From contig NZ_VDFU01000035.1 of the NCBI RefSeq assembly GCF_006152115.1, positions 1-33,189 of the forward strand: a DNA stretch of 33,189 nt. Direction: 5' to 3'. The stretch comes from Rubellimicrobium rubrum (GTDB taxonomy: Bacteria; Pseudomonadota; Alphaproteobacteria; Rhodobacterales; Rhodobacteraceae). Numbering within the stretch: the first letter of the stretch is position 1; each line of letters begins with the position of its first letter. The notes under the pieces are model-generated. The model was given only the letters and a program-made list of their open reading frames with translations, was not told the origin of the DNA and did no database searches. Of this stretch, positions 17,354-29,616 are shown one piece after another. The translations under genes and the position numbers were made by a program.

Positions 17354-18082
17354 TCAAATGTCGAAGTTGGTCGGCAGGACCACGACGTCGCGGATGGTGA
17401 CATTGCGCGGCCGGGTCAGCATGAACATCACCGCATCCGCTACTTCCTTGGGCTCGATGAGGCTGCCGCTTTCCTTGGCCTTCCTAAGGTTCTCCTCGGG
17501 CCAGTCGGCCAGGAGCGCGCTGATCACCGGGCCCGGCGACACCGAGCCTACACGAACGCCATGCTTGTTCAGTTGCCGCCGCATGGCCTGGACAAAGCTG
17601 TTCATCGCCCATTTCGAGGCGGAATAGACGGGCTCCCACGGAATCGCGCTGTGGCCCGCGACAGAGCTGGTGACGATGATGTCGCCGGTCCCGCGTTCGA
17701 TCATGTGCGGGATCACCGAATGGACGTTCTTCATCACCACGTTGACGTTCAGGTTGAGCATCCGGTCGATCGTCTCCGGCGTCGTCTCGGTCAGGTCGCC
17801 GCCGATGTAGGTGCCGGCGTTGGCATGCAGGATGTCGAGCTGGCCCGCCTTCTCGAGGACGCCGTCCAAGAGGGTCGCGCAACTGGCGGGGTCGAGAAGA
17901 TCGATCTTGAGCGGGATCGCCGCTGCGCCGTGCTTCTCGGCTAGGGCGGCAAGGGCCCGTTCGTCCCGATCGACCAGGACGACCCTGGCCCCGGCGGCCA
18001 TCATCGCCTCGGCGCTGGCAAGCCCGATGCCCGACGCCGCTCCCGTTATGGCCGCGACCTTGCCTTCCAGTTCATTCGCCAT
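17354..18082 (-). CDS. SDR polyol dehydrogenase, ribitol 2-dehydrogenase-like
   Basis: This is a classical short-chain dehydrogenase of 242 residues. The start is the ATG at 18080-18082, preceded by GGGAG; upstream in-frame codons lack support. TGAASGIG at 13-20 binds the dinucleotide, D38 after the second strand suggests NAD, and NAG at 88-90 and S139/S140, Y153 and K157 form the active site. Segments such as LDILHANAGTYIGG, WEPVYSASK and NVTIRDVVVLPTNFDI strongly recall Klebsiella ribitol 2-dehydrogenase (RbtD), which oxidises ribitol to D-ribulose. The exact polyol is not certain. It is the last gene of the minus arm of the sugar locus, 195 bp after the PF08013 gene. Confidence 0.85.
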   Translation of the reverse strand: MANELEGKVAAITGAASGIGLASAEAMMAAGARVVLVDRDERALAALAEKHGAAAIPLKIDLLDPASCATLLDGVLEKAGQLDILHANAGTYIGGDLTETTPETIDRMLNLNVNVVMKNVHSVIPHMIERGTGDIIVTSSVAGHSAIPWEPVYSASKWAMNSFVQAMRRQLNKHGVRVGSVSPGPVISALLADWPEENLRKAKESGSLIEPKEVADAVMFMLTRPRNVTIRDVVVLPTNFDI

Positions 18083-18104
18083 GGTATGCTCCCTTTGATG
18101 CGAA

Positions 18105-18120
18105 GCCGTCCCCCGACGGC
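18105..18120 (-). other. Hairpin before the ribitol-dehydrogenase-like gene
   Basis: GCCGTC-GGGG-GACGGC forms a perfect six-pair stem 22 bases upstream of the start codon. It could reduce translation initiation or be the end of a processed leader. Confidence 0.35.
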
Positions 18121-18128
18121 CTGAATGT

Positions 18129-18152
18129 GGCACCCTTTGGACCAAGGGTGCC
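18129..18152 (-). other. Perfect nine-pair hairpin between the PF08013 and SDR genes
   Basis: GGCACCCTT and AAGGGTGCC flank a six-base loop. A 14-bp palindrome (GCCGGGCGCCCGGC, 18182-18195) lies next to it. Neither has a T-run. The 195-bp gap breaks an otherwise tight operon, so this is a likely mRNA processing or attenuation point. Confidence 0.45.
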
Positions 18153-18277
18153 GGATGGCTGGTTCAAGTGAGTGCAGGCCGGCCGGGCGCCCGGCTCGCC
18201 GGACCGGCGCGCAGCGACCTCATGGAAGTGGCCTCGGATGGCATTCACGATCCTTTTGCAGCAGATGGCCTGATCCC

Positions 18278-26535: not shown

Positions 26536-26540
26536 AGGCC

Positions 26541-27584
26541 ATGAAGTCCCTCGTTCTTGAGCAGAAGGGCGAACTCGCCCTGCGCGACCTCCCCATCGAG
26601 AAGGATGAGGTGCTGGGCCCCCATGATGTGCGCATCAAGCTGCATACCGTGGGCATCTGCGGATCGGACGTCCACTACTACACGCACGGGCGCATCGGTC
26701 CTTTCGTCGTCAACGCGCCAATGATCCTGGGACACGAGGCCTCGGGGACGGTCATCGAGGTAGGCTCGGCCGTCACCACCCTGAAGGAAGGGGACAGGGT
26801 CTGCATGGAGCCGGGTATCCCCGACCCCAACAGCCGCGCCACGCGGATGGGCATGTACAACGTCGACCCCAAGGTGCGCTTCTGGGCCACCCCGCCCGTC
26901 CACGGCGTCCTGCGACCCACGGTGGTCCACCCCGAGGCGTTCACCTTCAAGCTGCCCGAGACCGTAAGCTTTGCGGAAGCCGCCATGGTCGAGCCCCTCG
27001 CCGTGGGCGTGCACGCGGCGACCAAGGCGCGGATCAAGCCCGGCGACATCGCTCTCGTCATGGGGGCCGGGCCGATCGGGCTCGTGACGGCTCTCTCGGC
27101 CTTGGCGGCGGGCTGCGCGCGGGTCTACGTCTCGGACCTGGACGACGCCAAGCTGGCCATCGCGGCCAGCCTCGGGCCCATCACGCCGATCAACGTGACG
27201 CGGCAATCGGCGGCCGAGGTCATCCTGAAGGACACGGACGGCTGGGGCGTGGAGGTGGTGTTCGAGGCGACGGGCAGCCCCCGCGCCGCGGCCACCATCT
27301 TCGAGGCGCTCTGCCCCGGCGGCTGCGTCGTGATGATCGGCGGGCAGCCCGACCCCATCGCCTACGACGCCGGAGCCGCCATGATCCGCGAAGCGCGGGT
27401 CGAGAACATCTTCCGCTATGCCCACGCCTTCCCGCGCTGCGTGGCCATGATCGGGTCGGGCGCCATCGACGTGAAGCCCCTGATCACCCGCACGTTCCAG
27501 TTCGACGAAAGCGTCCATGCCTTCGAGATCGCCGCCTCCGCGCCGTCCGGCGACGTGAAGATGCAGATCGAACTGCCGCAATAA
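26541..27584 (+). CDS. Zinc-dependent polyol dehydrogenase (MDR), xylitol dehydrogenase-like
   Basis: This medium-chain dehydrogenase has 347 residues, starting at the ATG 26541. The catalytic zinc site is C40 (GICGSD), H65-E66 (GHE) and E151 (VEPLAVG). The nucleotide fold has GAGPIG at 175-180, with D199 pointing to NAD. The structural-zinc lobe has no cysteines: the four usual positions fall in [18 protein letters not shown], as in animal sorbitol dehydrogenase and rhizobial xylitol dehydrogenase-like enzymes. It should oxidise a polyol at a secondary carbon, for example xylitol to D-xylulose or a hexitol to a ketose. It lies inside the transporter operon, between the small membrane protein and the ATPase. 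Confidence 0.9.
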
Positions 27585-27597
27585 GGAAGGAGCCATC

Positions 27598-28659
27598 TTG
27601 GCAAACGTCACCATCGACAACGTCGTCAAGCGCTACGGTGCGGCCGAGATCATGCACGGCGTCAACGTCGACATCGACGACGGGGAGTTCGTGGTCCTTG
27701 TCGGCCCGTCCGGTTGCGGGAAATCGACGCTCCTGCGGATGATCGCCGGGCTTGAGGAAATCAGCAGCGGACAGATCAGGATCGGCGGGCGGGTCGTCAA
27801 CGACGTCCCCCCCAAGGAGCGGGACATCGCCATGGTGTTCCAATCTTACGCGCTTTATCCCCACAAGACCGTGGCCGAGAACATGGGCTTTCCGCTCAAG
27901 ATGGCCAAGCGGCCCCAGGCCGAGATCGACAGCAAGGTCGGCAAGGCTGCGCAGATCCTTGACCTGTCCCACCTCCTCAAGCGTTATCCCAAGCAGCTCT
28001 CGGGCGGGCAGCGGCAGCGGGTGGCCATGGGCCGCGCCATCGTTCGCGACCCGCAGGTGTTCCTGTTCGACGAGCCTTTGTCGAACCTCGACGCCAAGCT
28101 CCGCGTGACGATGCGGGTGGAAATCAAGGAGCTTCACCAGCGGCTCAAGACGACGATCATCTACGTCACCCACGACCAGATCGAGGCCATGACCATGGCC
28201 GACAAGATCGTGGTCATGCGTGACGGCCGCGTGGAGCAGATCGGCGCGCCGCTCGACCTTTACGACCGGCCGCAGAACGTCTTCGTAGCGGGCTTCATCG
28301 GATCGCCTGCGATGAACTTCATCCATGGGCGGATCCAATCGCAAGGCGCGGCCCTGCAGTTCGTCGCCGAAAGCGGGCTTGTGCTGCCAGTGCCGCCGGG
28401 ATCGGCCGAGGAAGGCCGCGCCGTCATCTACGGCATCCGTCCGGAGGACATCGAGATCGGCCCCGGCGGAATCCCGGTGCGGGTGGCCGTCATCGAGCCG
28501 ATGGGCGCCGAGACGCAGGTGTTCGCCAAGGTCGGCAACGACATGATCGACGCCATCGTCCGGCAAAGGATCGCGGCTAGGCCCGGCGATGAGCTGCCGT
28601 TCCGGATCGACGTGTCGAAGGTACACCTGTTCGACCGCGCGACCGAGAAGCGGATCTGA
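27598..28659 (+). CDS. Sugar ABC transporter ATP-binding protein (UgpC/MalK-type)
   Basis: The 353-residue product energises the permease pair as a homodimer. Walker A is GPSGCGKST at 36-44, then the Q-loop FQSYALYPH, signature [15 protein letters not shown], Walker [13 protein letters not shown] and H-loop VTHDQ. A C-terminal TOBE-type regulatory domain covers about residues 240-353 ([12 protein letters not shown]). The start is a TTG codon at 27598, five bases after AAGGAG; the family start and spacing leave little doubt. It is the only ATPase gene in the operon. Confidence 0.96.
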
Positions 28660-28842
28660 GACAGCCCCGGCGCGGCGGCCCGCAAGCCTTCGACCTCTAG
28701 GCGCGCAAGGACTGGTACCCTGTAGCGGCGTCGCACCGATCTGGCGGCGGCCCCTTTCTCGGCACCTGCGGAATGCACTGCGGGACAGCCAACCCTTCCG
28801 ACCGGACCGGGGCGGCTCCGGTTCATCTACGAGGACTGCGAC

Positions 28843-29616
28843 ATGTATCAGGAACGCTTTCGGCTGGATGGCGAGACGGCCGTCATCACCGGCGGAGGAC
28901 GCGGCATCGGGCTTTGCTGCGCCGAAGCGCTGGGCGAGGCCGGAGCCCGCATCGTGATAATCGAAGCGGAGGAAGCCGCGACCGAAGAGGCCGTGCAGAC
29001 GCTTGGCAGCAAGGGCGTGGAGGTCCATGCTTTTGCCGGCGACGTGACCCGCTCCGACCGCATGCGGGGGATCGCGGACGAGCTTGCCACGCGCGGAATG
29101 GCGGCCACGGTGCTGGTCAACAACGCCGGCATCGGCCAAAGCGGCATCGGCAGCGAGGACATCACCGATGCCGACTGGCTTCGGATCATGGACGTCAACG
29201 TCAACGGCGTGTTCTGGTGCGCCCGCGCCTTTGGCCGGCACATGATCCAGGCGCGCCGGGGCTCCATCGTCAATCTGGGCTCCATGTCGGGCACCATCGC
29301 CAACCGGCCGCAGCCGCAGACACCTTACAACGTGTCCAAGGCGGCGGTGCACCACCTGACCCGGTCCATGGCGGCCGAGTGGGCGGCCCACGGCATCCGG
29401 ATCAACGCGGTGGCCCCAACCTACATCGAGACGCCGATGGTCCTTGCCAACCCGCTCAATCAGGAGCGCATCCCCATCTGGCTCAACGATACGCCCATGG
29501 GCCGGATGGGTCAGGCGCACGAAGTGGCGGCCGCTGTCCTGTTCCTGGCCTCGGGCGCCGCAAGCCTGATCACCGGGGCCGTGGTACCGGTGGATGCAGG
29601 CTACACCTGCTGGTGA
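28843..29616 (+). CDS. SDR polyol dehydrogenase, galactitol dehydrogenase-like
   Basis: This is a short-chain dehydrogenase of 257 residues with TGGGRGIG at 16-23, NNAG, and the catalytic S149, Y162 and K166. The segments INLGSMSGTI (here VNLGSMSGTIANRPQ), HHLTRSMAAEWA and the C-terminal VDAGYTCW recall Rhodobacter galactitol dehydrogenase, which acts on several polyols with L-threo or related configuration. Substrate assignment is inference. The start follows GAGGA by seven bases. It lies 183 bp after the ATPase gene and is probably the last gene of the plus arm. It is the third dehydrogenase of the locus and belongs to a different SDR subgroup from the one at 17354-18082. Confidence 0.88.
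   Translation: MYQERFRLDGETAVITGGGRGIGLCCAEALGEAGARIVIIEAEEAATEEAVQTLGSKGVEVHAFAGDVTRSDRMRGIADELATRGMAATVLVNNAGIGQSGIGSEDITDADWLRIMDVNVNGVFWCARAFGRHMIQARRGSIVNLGSMSGTIANRPQPQTPYNVSKAAVHHLTRSMAAEWAAHGIRINAVAPTYIETPMVLANPLNQERIPIWLNDTPMGRMGQAHEVAAAVLFLASGAASLITGAVVPVDAGYTCW

Follow-up and report, generated by a model that had tools for sequence, protein, structure and literature searches.

Ketose 3-epimerases are applied in the production of rare sugars such as D-allulose, and we know of no natural role for most of them. For Agrobacterium fabrum C58, a D-altritol/galactitol pathway was reportedly described by Wichelecki et al. in 2015. In E. coli, PF08013 subunits are found in the tagatose-bisphosphate aldolases GatYZ and KbaYZ, together with catalytic partners of the GatY/KbaY type (PF01116). 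A tagatose operon on pSymB and a chromosomal smoS have been reported from Sinorhizobium meliloti (Kohlmeier et al. 2019, via the accessible part of PMC10433430).

The window studied here, i.e. the whole analyzed stretch of 33,189 nucleotides of a Rubellimicrobium rubrum contig (NZ_VDFU01000035.1), contained according to profile searches 12 genes at positions 17354-29616 that are arranged in two divergent operons. Every family named in an earlier note on this DNA (importer, dehydrogenases, added free-ketose 3-epimerase, kinase, PF08013 protein, ROK regulator) was located in this region, the extra dehydrogenases being represented by sdrS, sdrG and the MDR; the DUF2160 gene, however, had been overlooked in that list. 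The features are as follows:

17354-18082, minus strand: sdrS, predicted SDR polyol dehydrogenase (alternative ORF start at 18145)
18278-19546, minus strand: PF08013 protein, predicted tagatose-6-phosphate 4-epimerase (PF08013, 560 bits; cut-off 26.7)
19546-20535, minus strand: predicted tagatose kinase, PfkB family (NF049991, 557 bits; cut-off 420)
20548-21765, minus strand: ROK-family regulator (PF00480, 109 bits)
21820-22704, minus strand: predicted ketose 3-epimerase (PF01261; alternative ORF start at 22800)
22748-22778, plus strand: predicted ROK operator near the epimerase start (13.0 bits; core 22751-22771)
22889-22919, plus strand: predicted ROK operator near the start of the solute-binding protein (SBP) gene (23.3 bits; core 22892-22912)
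22997-24433, plus strand: ABC solute-binding protein, CUT1 (PF13416/PF01547)
24546-25421, plus strand: ABC permease 1 (PF00528)
25426-26262, plus strand: ABC permease 2 (PF00528)
26266-26535, plus strand: DUF2160 small membrane protein (PF09928, 38.2 bits; cut-off 28)
26541-27584, plus strand: predicted MDR (zinc) polyol dehydrogenase (PF08240/PF00107)
27598-28659, plus strand: ABC ATPase, UgpC/MalK type (NF008653, 505 bits; cut-off 432)
28843-29616, plus strand: sdrG, predicted SDR polyol dehydrogenase, galactitol-dehydrogenase-like (PDB matches 3awd and 2wdz)

The neighboring genes, nusG (14867-15388) and secE (read by eye) upstream and an EamA gene (30146-31090) downstream, look unrelated to the locus; a repeated 12-base stretch from the tRNA-Trp region, sought as the mark of an island end, was not found.

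Comparison with described systems and recurrence

The Agrobacterium type was represented by the A. rubi locus L134, taken in place of the C58 sequence itself. It resembles the window locus in the tagatose kinase adjoining the PF08013 gene, the CUT1 importer and the presence of an MDR and an SDR, and its kinase, like that of the window, exceeds the NF049991 cut-off (529 bits). In contrast, the window MDR shared 26% identity with its A. rubi counterpart, which rules it out as an orthologue, and the window SDRs represent other subfamilies: The A. rubi SDR lies above the cut-off of PRK07067, the model of SmoS-type SDRs (421 bits; cut-off 338), whereas sdrS scored 119 bits, and the model was absent from the best 25 listed for sdrG. 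Beyond the Agrobacterium type, the window possesses the ketose 3-epimerase, a third dehydrogenase and DUF2160; its regulator is a ROK protein instead of an annotated LacI. In consequence of the deviating MDR and SDRs, the match ends at the kinase and the predicted 4-epimerase. The earlier statement that all three families of the Agrobacterium pathway are present is, if equivalents are meant, supported for the kinase and the PF08013 protein but not for the dehydrogenases, with an MDR of such low identity and no PRK07067-type SDR in the locus.

The pSymB operon of S. meliloti likewise contains a tagatose kinase (428 bits) next to a PF08013 gene, but differs in its CUT2-like importer, its LacI regulator and the lack of any annotated dehydrogenase or 3-epimerase. 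The PF08013 subunits of E. coli GatYZ/KbaYZ have the same proposed catalytic residues as the window protein, whereas the R. rubrum draft genome is devoid of a GatY/KbaY-type (PF01116) partner. Compared with its family (3vyl, AgDAE, DTE, DAE), to which it is linked by its identity to 3vyl and the retained metal ligands, the window 3-epimerase is distinguished by a locus that also encodes a tagatose kinase and a ROK regulator and by a score under the NF051856 cut-off.

Recurrence of the gene set was surveyed in stretches around 32 of the 53 listed PF08013 places (window excluded). Copies or near copies (L071, L082, L131, L053) and PF08013 pieces of less than 330 residues were left out of the counts, as was L136, in which ROK and epimerase genes are both present and which was used only as a training locus for the operator matrix. 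The complete set, counted for the genes other than DUF2160, was found in four of the 27 other sampled loci, and in another 12 of them only ROK, sdrG or both were missing; some absences may be contig ends, since the contigs of L031, L041, L043 and others end inside or near the locus. As the same block was found again in other genomes, its grouping is beyond chance, and uniqueness to the R. rubrum genome is ruled out. The suggestion that the genes may be undescribed in this order agrees with the literature searched (mostly outside subscription papers), in which no description of the set was found, but has to be qualified by its occurrence in several genera. What looks new is the combination of already known parts with a predicted switch of its own, recurring in related bacteria.

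Among 71 PF08013 loci (window included), the kinase was present in 26 of the 27 loci with sdrS; an epimerase orthologue was present in 20 of the 27 sdrS loci versus one of the 44 others. These linkage counts are conditional on PF08013, because the loci were found through it. A ketose 3-epimerase was found in each of the 16 ROK-type loci sampled (the window and 15 others): the orthologue in 14, replaced in L048 and L049 by a protein that passes the D-psicose 3-epimerase cut-off. L049 in addition harbors a tagatose-bisphosphate aldolase beside the PF08013 locus, which speaks against the route proposed below; in L052, a partial ROK match that covered 103 residues and fell on a different gene was dropped by the length limit. 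The orthologue accompanied sdrG in 11/11 loci versus 9/16 loci without it (Fisher test, p 0.02), a contrast that is weak as the loci are related and is lowered by the two D-psicose epimerases. A plain Agrobacterium-type D-altritol/galactitol locus, in which D-tagatose would be the direct product of the MDR and an SDR, with only accessory roles for the epimerase and the third dehydrogenase, appears unlikely: The shared kinase and PF08013 families, with the A. rubi kinase above the cut-off, and the seven of 27 sdrS loci that lack an epimerase orthologue are in agreement with it, but the divergent MDR, an sdrS far under the PRK07067 cut-off passed by the A. rubi SDR, the ROK gene in place of LacI and the consistent presence of a ketose 3-epimerase in ROK-type loci argue against it.

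Kinase, PF08013 protein and the proposed route

The PF08013 protein matched the PDB structures 3txv (451 bits) and 2fiq (354 bits) and retained all seven residues (C24, E48, D91, H92, E175, H262, K284) that are proposed as catalytic for GatZ in the available text of PMC11907403, used here as reference set. PF01116 (class II aldolase) gave no match in the 4.6-Mb draft genome (99.98% complete), in a search that returned matches in 11 of 14 control genomes; the claim of a PF08013 protein lacking an aldolase partner is thus borne out genome-wide, and a function as aldolase chaperone is ruled out. Since PF01116 is absent and the GatZ residues are complete, a predicted role as tagatose-6-phosphate 4-epimerase fits the protein, and the locus represents a genomic case of a PF08013 protein having to work without a class II aldolase. 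Between the kinase gene and the PF08013 gene there is a one-base overlap; judged from sequence, a D-tagatose pathway type is supported for both products.

We regard it as probable that the locus encodes a locally regulated funnel of hexitols and ketohexoses to fructose 6-phosphate, with all reactions and the import specificity predicted from the encoded proteins. The CUT1 ABC importer would take up polyols, which would be oxidized by sdrS, MDR and sdrG to ketohexoses; the ketose 3-epimerase would turn C-3 epimers into usable forms, the tagatose kinase would yield D-tagatose 6-phosphate, and the PF08013 protein would convert the latter by C-4 epimerization to fructose 6-phosphate, which would make an aldolase unnecessary. 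Of the polyol funnel envisaged earlier, the hexitol/ketohexose route via C-3 and C-4 is therefore retained, but pentitols are disfavored as main substrates, because the kinase and the PF08013 protein belong to families of hexulose enzymes. A pentitol locus, converting ribitol, xylitol, L-arabinitol etc. to pentuloses with the epimerase acting as L-ribulose 3-epimerase, is very improbable: The top structure match of the epimerase (an L-ribulose 3-epimerase), the sdrS matches to entries named ribitol 2-dehydrogenase and an RbtT/DalT-family transporter in L048 point to it, but the kinase belongs to the tagatose-kinase equivalog, PfkB was the sole kinase family matched within the locus by profile searches, and GatZ and KbaZ work on hexulose 6-phosphates, as given in the accessible part of PMC11907403.

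Dehydrogenases, ketose 3-epimerase and importer

The sdrS protein was identical in 180 of 242 positions to PDB 5jo9 (deposited as Ribitol 2-dehydrogenase), which we take to be the B. japonicum D-sorbitol dehydrogenase. According to the available part of PMC12193009, neither galactitol nor D-glucitol was converted to a ketose by the B. japonicum sorbitol dehydrogenase, in assays whose conditions had not been optimized for this enzyme. The best PDB match of the MDR was human sorbitol dehydrogenase 1pl6 (272 bits); sdrG matched 3awd (254 bits) and the galactitol dehydrogenase 2wdz (234 bits). Two PRK07067-type (sorbitol/galactitol) dehydrogenases above the cut-off are encoded on other contigs of the genome and could supply tagatose without sdrS. 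In a class-wide sample, four of 385 genomes encoded sdrS at E values up to 1e-85: that of the window and three more, whose proteins were 59-70% identical. PF08013 was absent from all three of the latter; in one of them (L151), sdrS is adjoined by the same importer and MDR. This counts against a fixed tie between sdrS and tagatose. An entry series from D-gulitol (L-glucitol) via D-sorbose, D-tagatose and D-tagatose 6-phosphate to fructose 6-phosphate, with sdrS, the epimerase, the kinase and the PF08013 protein acting one after the other, is conceivable but doubtful, and the sdrS relatives in genomes that lack PF08013 make it slightly less likely still.

The best-matching structure of the epimerase was the L-ribulose 3-epimerase 3vyl (156/289 identical, 54%), and the Glu-Asp-His-Glu metal site is retained (E147, D180, H206, E241; reference ligands from the accessible part of PMC8167858); with 180 bits, the protein is under the threshold of the D-psicose 3-epimerase equivalog NF051856 (cut-off 300). 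The same part of PMC8167858 gives D-allulose and D-fructose as substrates of MetLRE, a relative of the window epimerase, and conversion of D-sorbose to D-tagatose is documented, according to PMC6432756, for other epimerase subfamilies, whereas we know of no such report for 3vyl, which weakens the series above. A class-wide search with the epimerase (E 1e-110) recovered one genome out of 385, the window's own; as this cut-off is severe, the result is silent on looser linkage. A route from allitol or D-allulose, in which the dehydrogenases would yield D-allulose, the epimerase D-fructose and the kinase would be a fructokinase, with the PF08013 protein serving tagatose made elsewhere, is quite unlikely: It would accord with the MetLRE substrates, with the D-psicose 3-epimerase model passed by the non-orthologous epimerases of L048 and L049 and with the PRK07067-type dehydrogenases as tagatose source, but is opposed by the overlapping kinase and PF08013 genes that stay together in nearly all sdrS loci.

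Within the favored hexitol/ketohexose funnel, the ROK-type locus may, as a tentative proposal, form a pathway dedicated to free ketoses, which would first be epimerized at C-3 (e.g. D-sorbose to D-tagatose), then phosphorylated and epimerized at C-4. If so, ketose 3-epimerases would have a natural, regulated role for which two subfamilies were recruited; the recurrent coupling of the epimerase to tagatose kinase and predicted 4-epimerase, along with a predicted operator, makes this role testable, e.g. in the carrier Gemmobacter straminiformis.

The solute-binding protein had 15 relatives (68-78% identical) and matched PDB 5iai in a profile search (E 7.5e-14); fold matches of its structure model (pLDDT 72.7) were scattered over many CUT1 binding proteins, and no close relative with known ligand was found by sequence, profile or fold.

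ROK regulator and predicted operators

The regulator contains a ROK domain, and a conserved motif is present beside its gene. The CxCG zinc motif, a feature of ROK regulators, was absent from the window protein and from the matched segments of 15/15 relatives. When a matrix built from eight other loci (L136 among them) was scanned across the window, the best and second-best matches (23.3 and 13.0 bits) were both positioned inside the divergent region and exceeded 60 Markov controls; the operator core, searched genome-wide as a pattern with a 10-base spacer, occurred in exactly two copies in the draft genome, each of them within the promoter region between the divergent operons. The best match upstream of the regulator, epimerase, kinase or SBP gene scored at least 19.9 in 15/15 ROK loci (seven of them training loci); among 42 ROK-free loci (four duplicates included), 41 scored at most 15.4. 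Most likely, the ROK protein would repress both divergent operons from the two predicted operators in the 292-bp intergenic region, repression as opposed to activation being presumed. As evidence to the contrary, operator-like matches without ROK were seen in L059 (21.5), in L151 directly upstream of sdrS (20.8) and in L034 away from these locus genes (27.2).

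Genomic placement and gene content

The main interest of the reported locus (17354-29616), which is moderate, lies in the coupling of a PF08013 tagatose-kinase locus with a ketose 3-epimerase and a predicted operator. The enzyme families and PF08013 tagatose loci as such are already known; a description of a ROK-type locus (one with a ROK-family regulator) containing a 3-epimerase was not found in the open-access literature searched. The window represents contig 29 of a draft genome (4.6 Mb, 104 contigs, 99.98% complete) that is placed in the Rhodobacteraceae/Paracoccaceae. The locus sits between the nusG/fusA side, whose other ORFs are read as an rpo/rpl cluster, and a tRNA-Trp gene:

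162-2279, minus strand: fusA, left part of the window
14867-15388, minus strand: nusG, left part of the window
31440-31515: tRNA-Trp, right of the locus

Between 15389 and 31515, nusG/secE are split from tRNA-Trp by the locus. The distance from nusG to tRNA-Trp is 16 kb in the window and at most 3 kb in the stretches of five of eight relatives; the stretches examined from the remaining three, one of them the same-genus genome G291, contain no tRNA-Trp.

In the order of transcription, the minus strand encodes the ketose 3-epimerase, the ROK regulator (20548-21765), the tagatose kinase, the PF08013 protein and an SDR polyol dehydrogenase (sdrS, 17354-18082); the plus strand encodes the solute-binding protein of a CUT1 ABC importer (SBP, 22997-24433), two permeases, a DUF2160 protein, a zinc polyol dehydrogenase (MDR, 26541-27584), the ATPase and a galactitol-dehydrogenase-like SDR (sdrG). 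The kinase scored 557 bits on the NCBIfam tagatose-kinase model (NF049991, cut-off 420), which was passed in 13 of 295 genomes of the family, PF08013 being present in 51 (both counts include the window genome). Among solved structures, the PF08013 protein matches PDB 3txv and 2fiq, the latter from E. coli. It retains all seven residues (C24, E48, D91, H92, E175, H262, K284) corresponding to those proposed as catalytic for GatZ: Cys20, Glu44, Asp87, His88, Glu171, His257 and Lys279 (PMC11907403). The earlier note's claim of a PF08013 protein without an aldolase partner was borne out: no PF01116 protein was found anywhere in the draft genome, while 11 of 14 control genomes contained one, which rules out a class II aldolase partner within the limits of this assembly.

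Known tagatose loci and recurrence of the gene set

A 2012 phylogeny of bacterial sorbitol dehydrogenases already mentions that some clusters of Agrobacterium and Rhizobium include 'tagatose 6-phosphate kinase' genes (PMC3458964). In Agrobacterium rubi (L134), LacI-MDR-SDR-SBP is divergent from kinase-PF08013-permeases-ATPase. The proposal that all Agrobacterium-type families are found here applies to the kinase (63% identity) and the PF08013 protein (58%), but not to the dehydrogenases: the MDR proteins share only 26% identity, and the sorbitol/galactitol PRK07067 type includes the SDR of A. rubi (421 bits, cut-off 338), whereas sdrS lies outside it (119 bits). On pSymB of S. meliloti, the kinase and PF08013 genes are grouped with a CUT2-like importer and LacI. 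Based on these differences, the window represents a further type. As two PRK07067-type genes are located on other contigs of the window genome, tagatose could also arise away from the locus.

The loci compared (given L-numbers) were found via PF08013, 34 by a genome-contig scan, together with stretches at 32 of 53 places and plasmid records; with L071, L082, L053 and L131 dropped as copies or near copies, the final set comprised 27 loci besides the window in which PF08013 has an orthologue of sdrS or of the epimerase close by. The combination of kinase, epimerase, sdrS, SBP and MDR occurred in 12 of the 27, and the full set including ROK and sdrG in four (L037, Gemmobacter straminiformis; L038, Bauldia MAG; L046, Rhodobacteraceae MAG; L081). 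The sdrG orthologue adjoins sdrS in all ten of the 27 loci having it; that of the window (28843-29616) has moved behind the ATPase gene. At L097 (K84), there is a partial sdrG match only, where no gene is annotated.

In a tree of 71 PF08013 proteins, 26 of 27 sdrS rows (window included) fell into one set of 33 (support 98/93). The sdrS label required 7 changes versus a mean of 21.8 in shuffles, and is thus clustered, yet lost or exchanged several times. The nearest rows to the window are Aurantimonas loci without sdrS; L032 and L034 from this genus have a PF08013 protein 73-75% identical to that of the window, a kinase at 50-51% and a different gene order, a pattern that may reflect individual genes being swapped among types of locus. 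L084, L089 and L093-L096, the same-genus genome G291 among them, form a separate PF08013 clade in whose neighbourhood no close tagatose kinase was found.

In a class-wide sample of 385 genomes chosen without regard to PF08013, sdrS (E up to 1e-85) was present in four, that of the window plus three more with 59-70% identity; PF08013 was absent from all three, and the tight linkage of sdrS is therefore limited to PF08013 loci. L151, from one of these three genomes, comprises an importer with its ATPase, an MDR, sdrS, a further SDR and a SorC-like regulator; its positions 4000-18000 hold the same CUT1-MDR importer block as the window. The polyol module can therefore function in the absence of the tagatose module. 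The epimerase (E 1e-110) was found in the window genome only, a search that says nothing on linkage either way.

Dehydrogenases and proposed pathway

The pathway outlined for the locus probably holds as a whole: a polyol would be imported and oxidised to a ketose, which would yield D-tagatose directly or via the 3-epimerase; the kinase would form tagatose 6-phosphate, and the PF08013 protein would convert this to fructose 6-phosphate. sdrS is 74% identical to PDB 5jo9, which we take to be the B. japonicum D-sorbitol dehydrogenase of PMC12193009. According to that study, the B. japonicum enzyme converts L-glucitol (D-gulitol) to D-sorbose (1.15%) and L-altritol to L-tagatose (0.47%); neither galactitol nor D-glucitol yielded a ketose with it, the conditions having been chosen to suit a different enzyme; the Rhodobacter galactitol dehydrogenase converts galactitol to L-tagatose, D-iditol to D-sorbose, and D-altritol to D-psicose and D-tagatose (PMC12193009). 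Closest to sdrG are a putative polyol dehydrogenase (3awd) and galactitol dehydrogenase (2wdz); the MDR is sorbitol-dehydrogenase-like, and the 3-epimerase, whose metal site is intact, shares 54% identity with the L-ribulose 3-epimerase 3vyl.

A series in which sdrS, the epimerase, the kinase and the PF08013 protein act one after the other would proceed via D-sorbose; it is chemically consistent and putative, since step 1 is taken from the sdrS relative and step 2 from other ketose 3-epimerase subfamilies (PMC6432756). D-gulitol, moreover, is not known to be common in nature. Galactitol oxidised via sdrG would yield L-tagatose, and this in turn L-sorbose, with no straight lead to the kinase.

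ROK-type loci, 3-epimerases and the predicted operator

A ROK orthologue was present in 16 loci (window and 15 others), 14 of which contain an epimerase orthologue; the other two, Commensalibacter L048 and Izhakiella L049, encode a D-psicose 3-epimerase (NF051856, 362 and 349 bits, cut-off 300) about 30% identical to the window epimerase. Every sampled ROK-type locus thus has a ketose 3-epimerase, two of them of another subfamily. Among the loci without ROK in the 27-locus set, 7 of 12 have the epimerase orthologue, the ROK/epimerase counts not being independent as the loci are related. A second locus type has a PF04198 sugar-binding (SorC-like) regulator, as checked in L036, L039, L040, L041, L047, L069, L099 and L151, a subset of the loci without ROK. 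Neither the window ROK nor, within the matched segments, any of its 15 relatives has the CxCG zinc motif that ROK proteins usually carry.

In L048 (5190-7423), the transporter beside the D-psicose 3-epimerase is an RbtT/DalT-family MFS protein. L049 (2050-7366) is a PF08013 locus with an aldolase neighbour, a GatY-like tagatose-bisphosphate aldolase (TIGR01858, 459 bits, cut-off 443.55) divergent from ROK-tagK-PF08013-sdrS; a CUT2 importer accompanies its D-psicose 3-epimerase.

A 31-base matrix from 16 CAACAAA-like sites of eight other ROK-type loci had its two best matches in the whole window inside the 292 bases separating the epimerase and SBP genes (next match 4.95):

22889-22919: predicted operator, 23.3 bits
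22748-22778: predicted operator, 13.0 bits

In 60 first-order Markov windows, the top best score was 18.0 and the top second-best 11.4. Exactly two copies of the core TTTG-N10-CAACAAA exist in the draft genome, those in the two predicted operators, and none of its reversed control; as the core was defined after the sites were seen, this count describes the locality of the sites and is not an independent discovery. Within up to 300 bases before the regulator, epimerase, kinase or SBP gene, scores of at least 19.9 were obtained in 15 of 15 ROK loci (eight outside training, of which L050 is nearly a copy of a training locus), and scores of at most 15.4 in 41 of 42 loci without ROK having at least one scanned gene, the exception being L059 (21.5). 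Whole-locus scans of loci without ROK gave high matches in L151 (20.8, directly 5' of sdrS) and in L034 (27.2, at a distance from the scanned genes).
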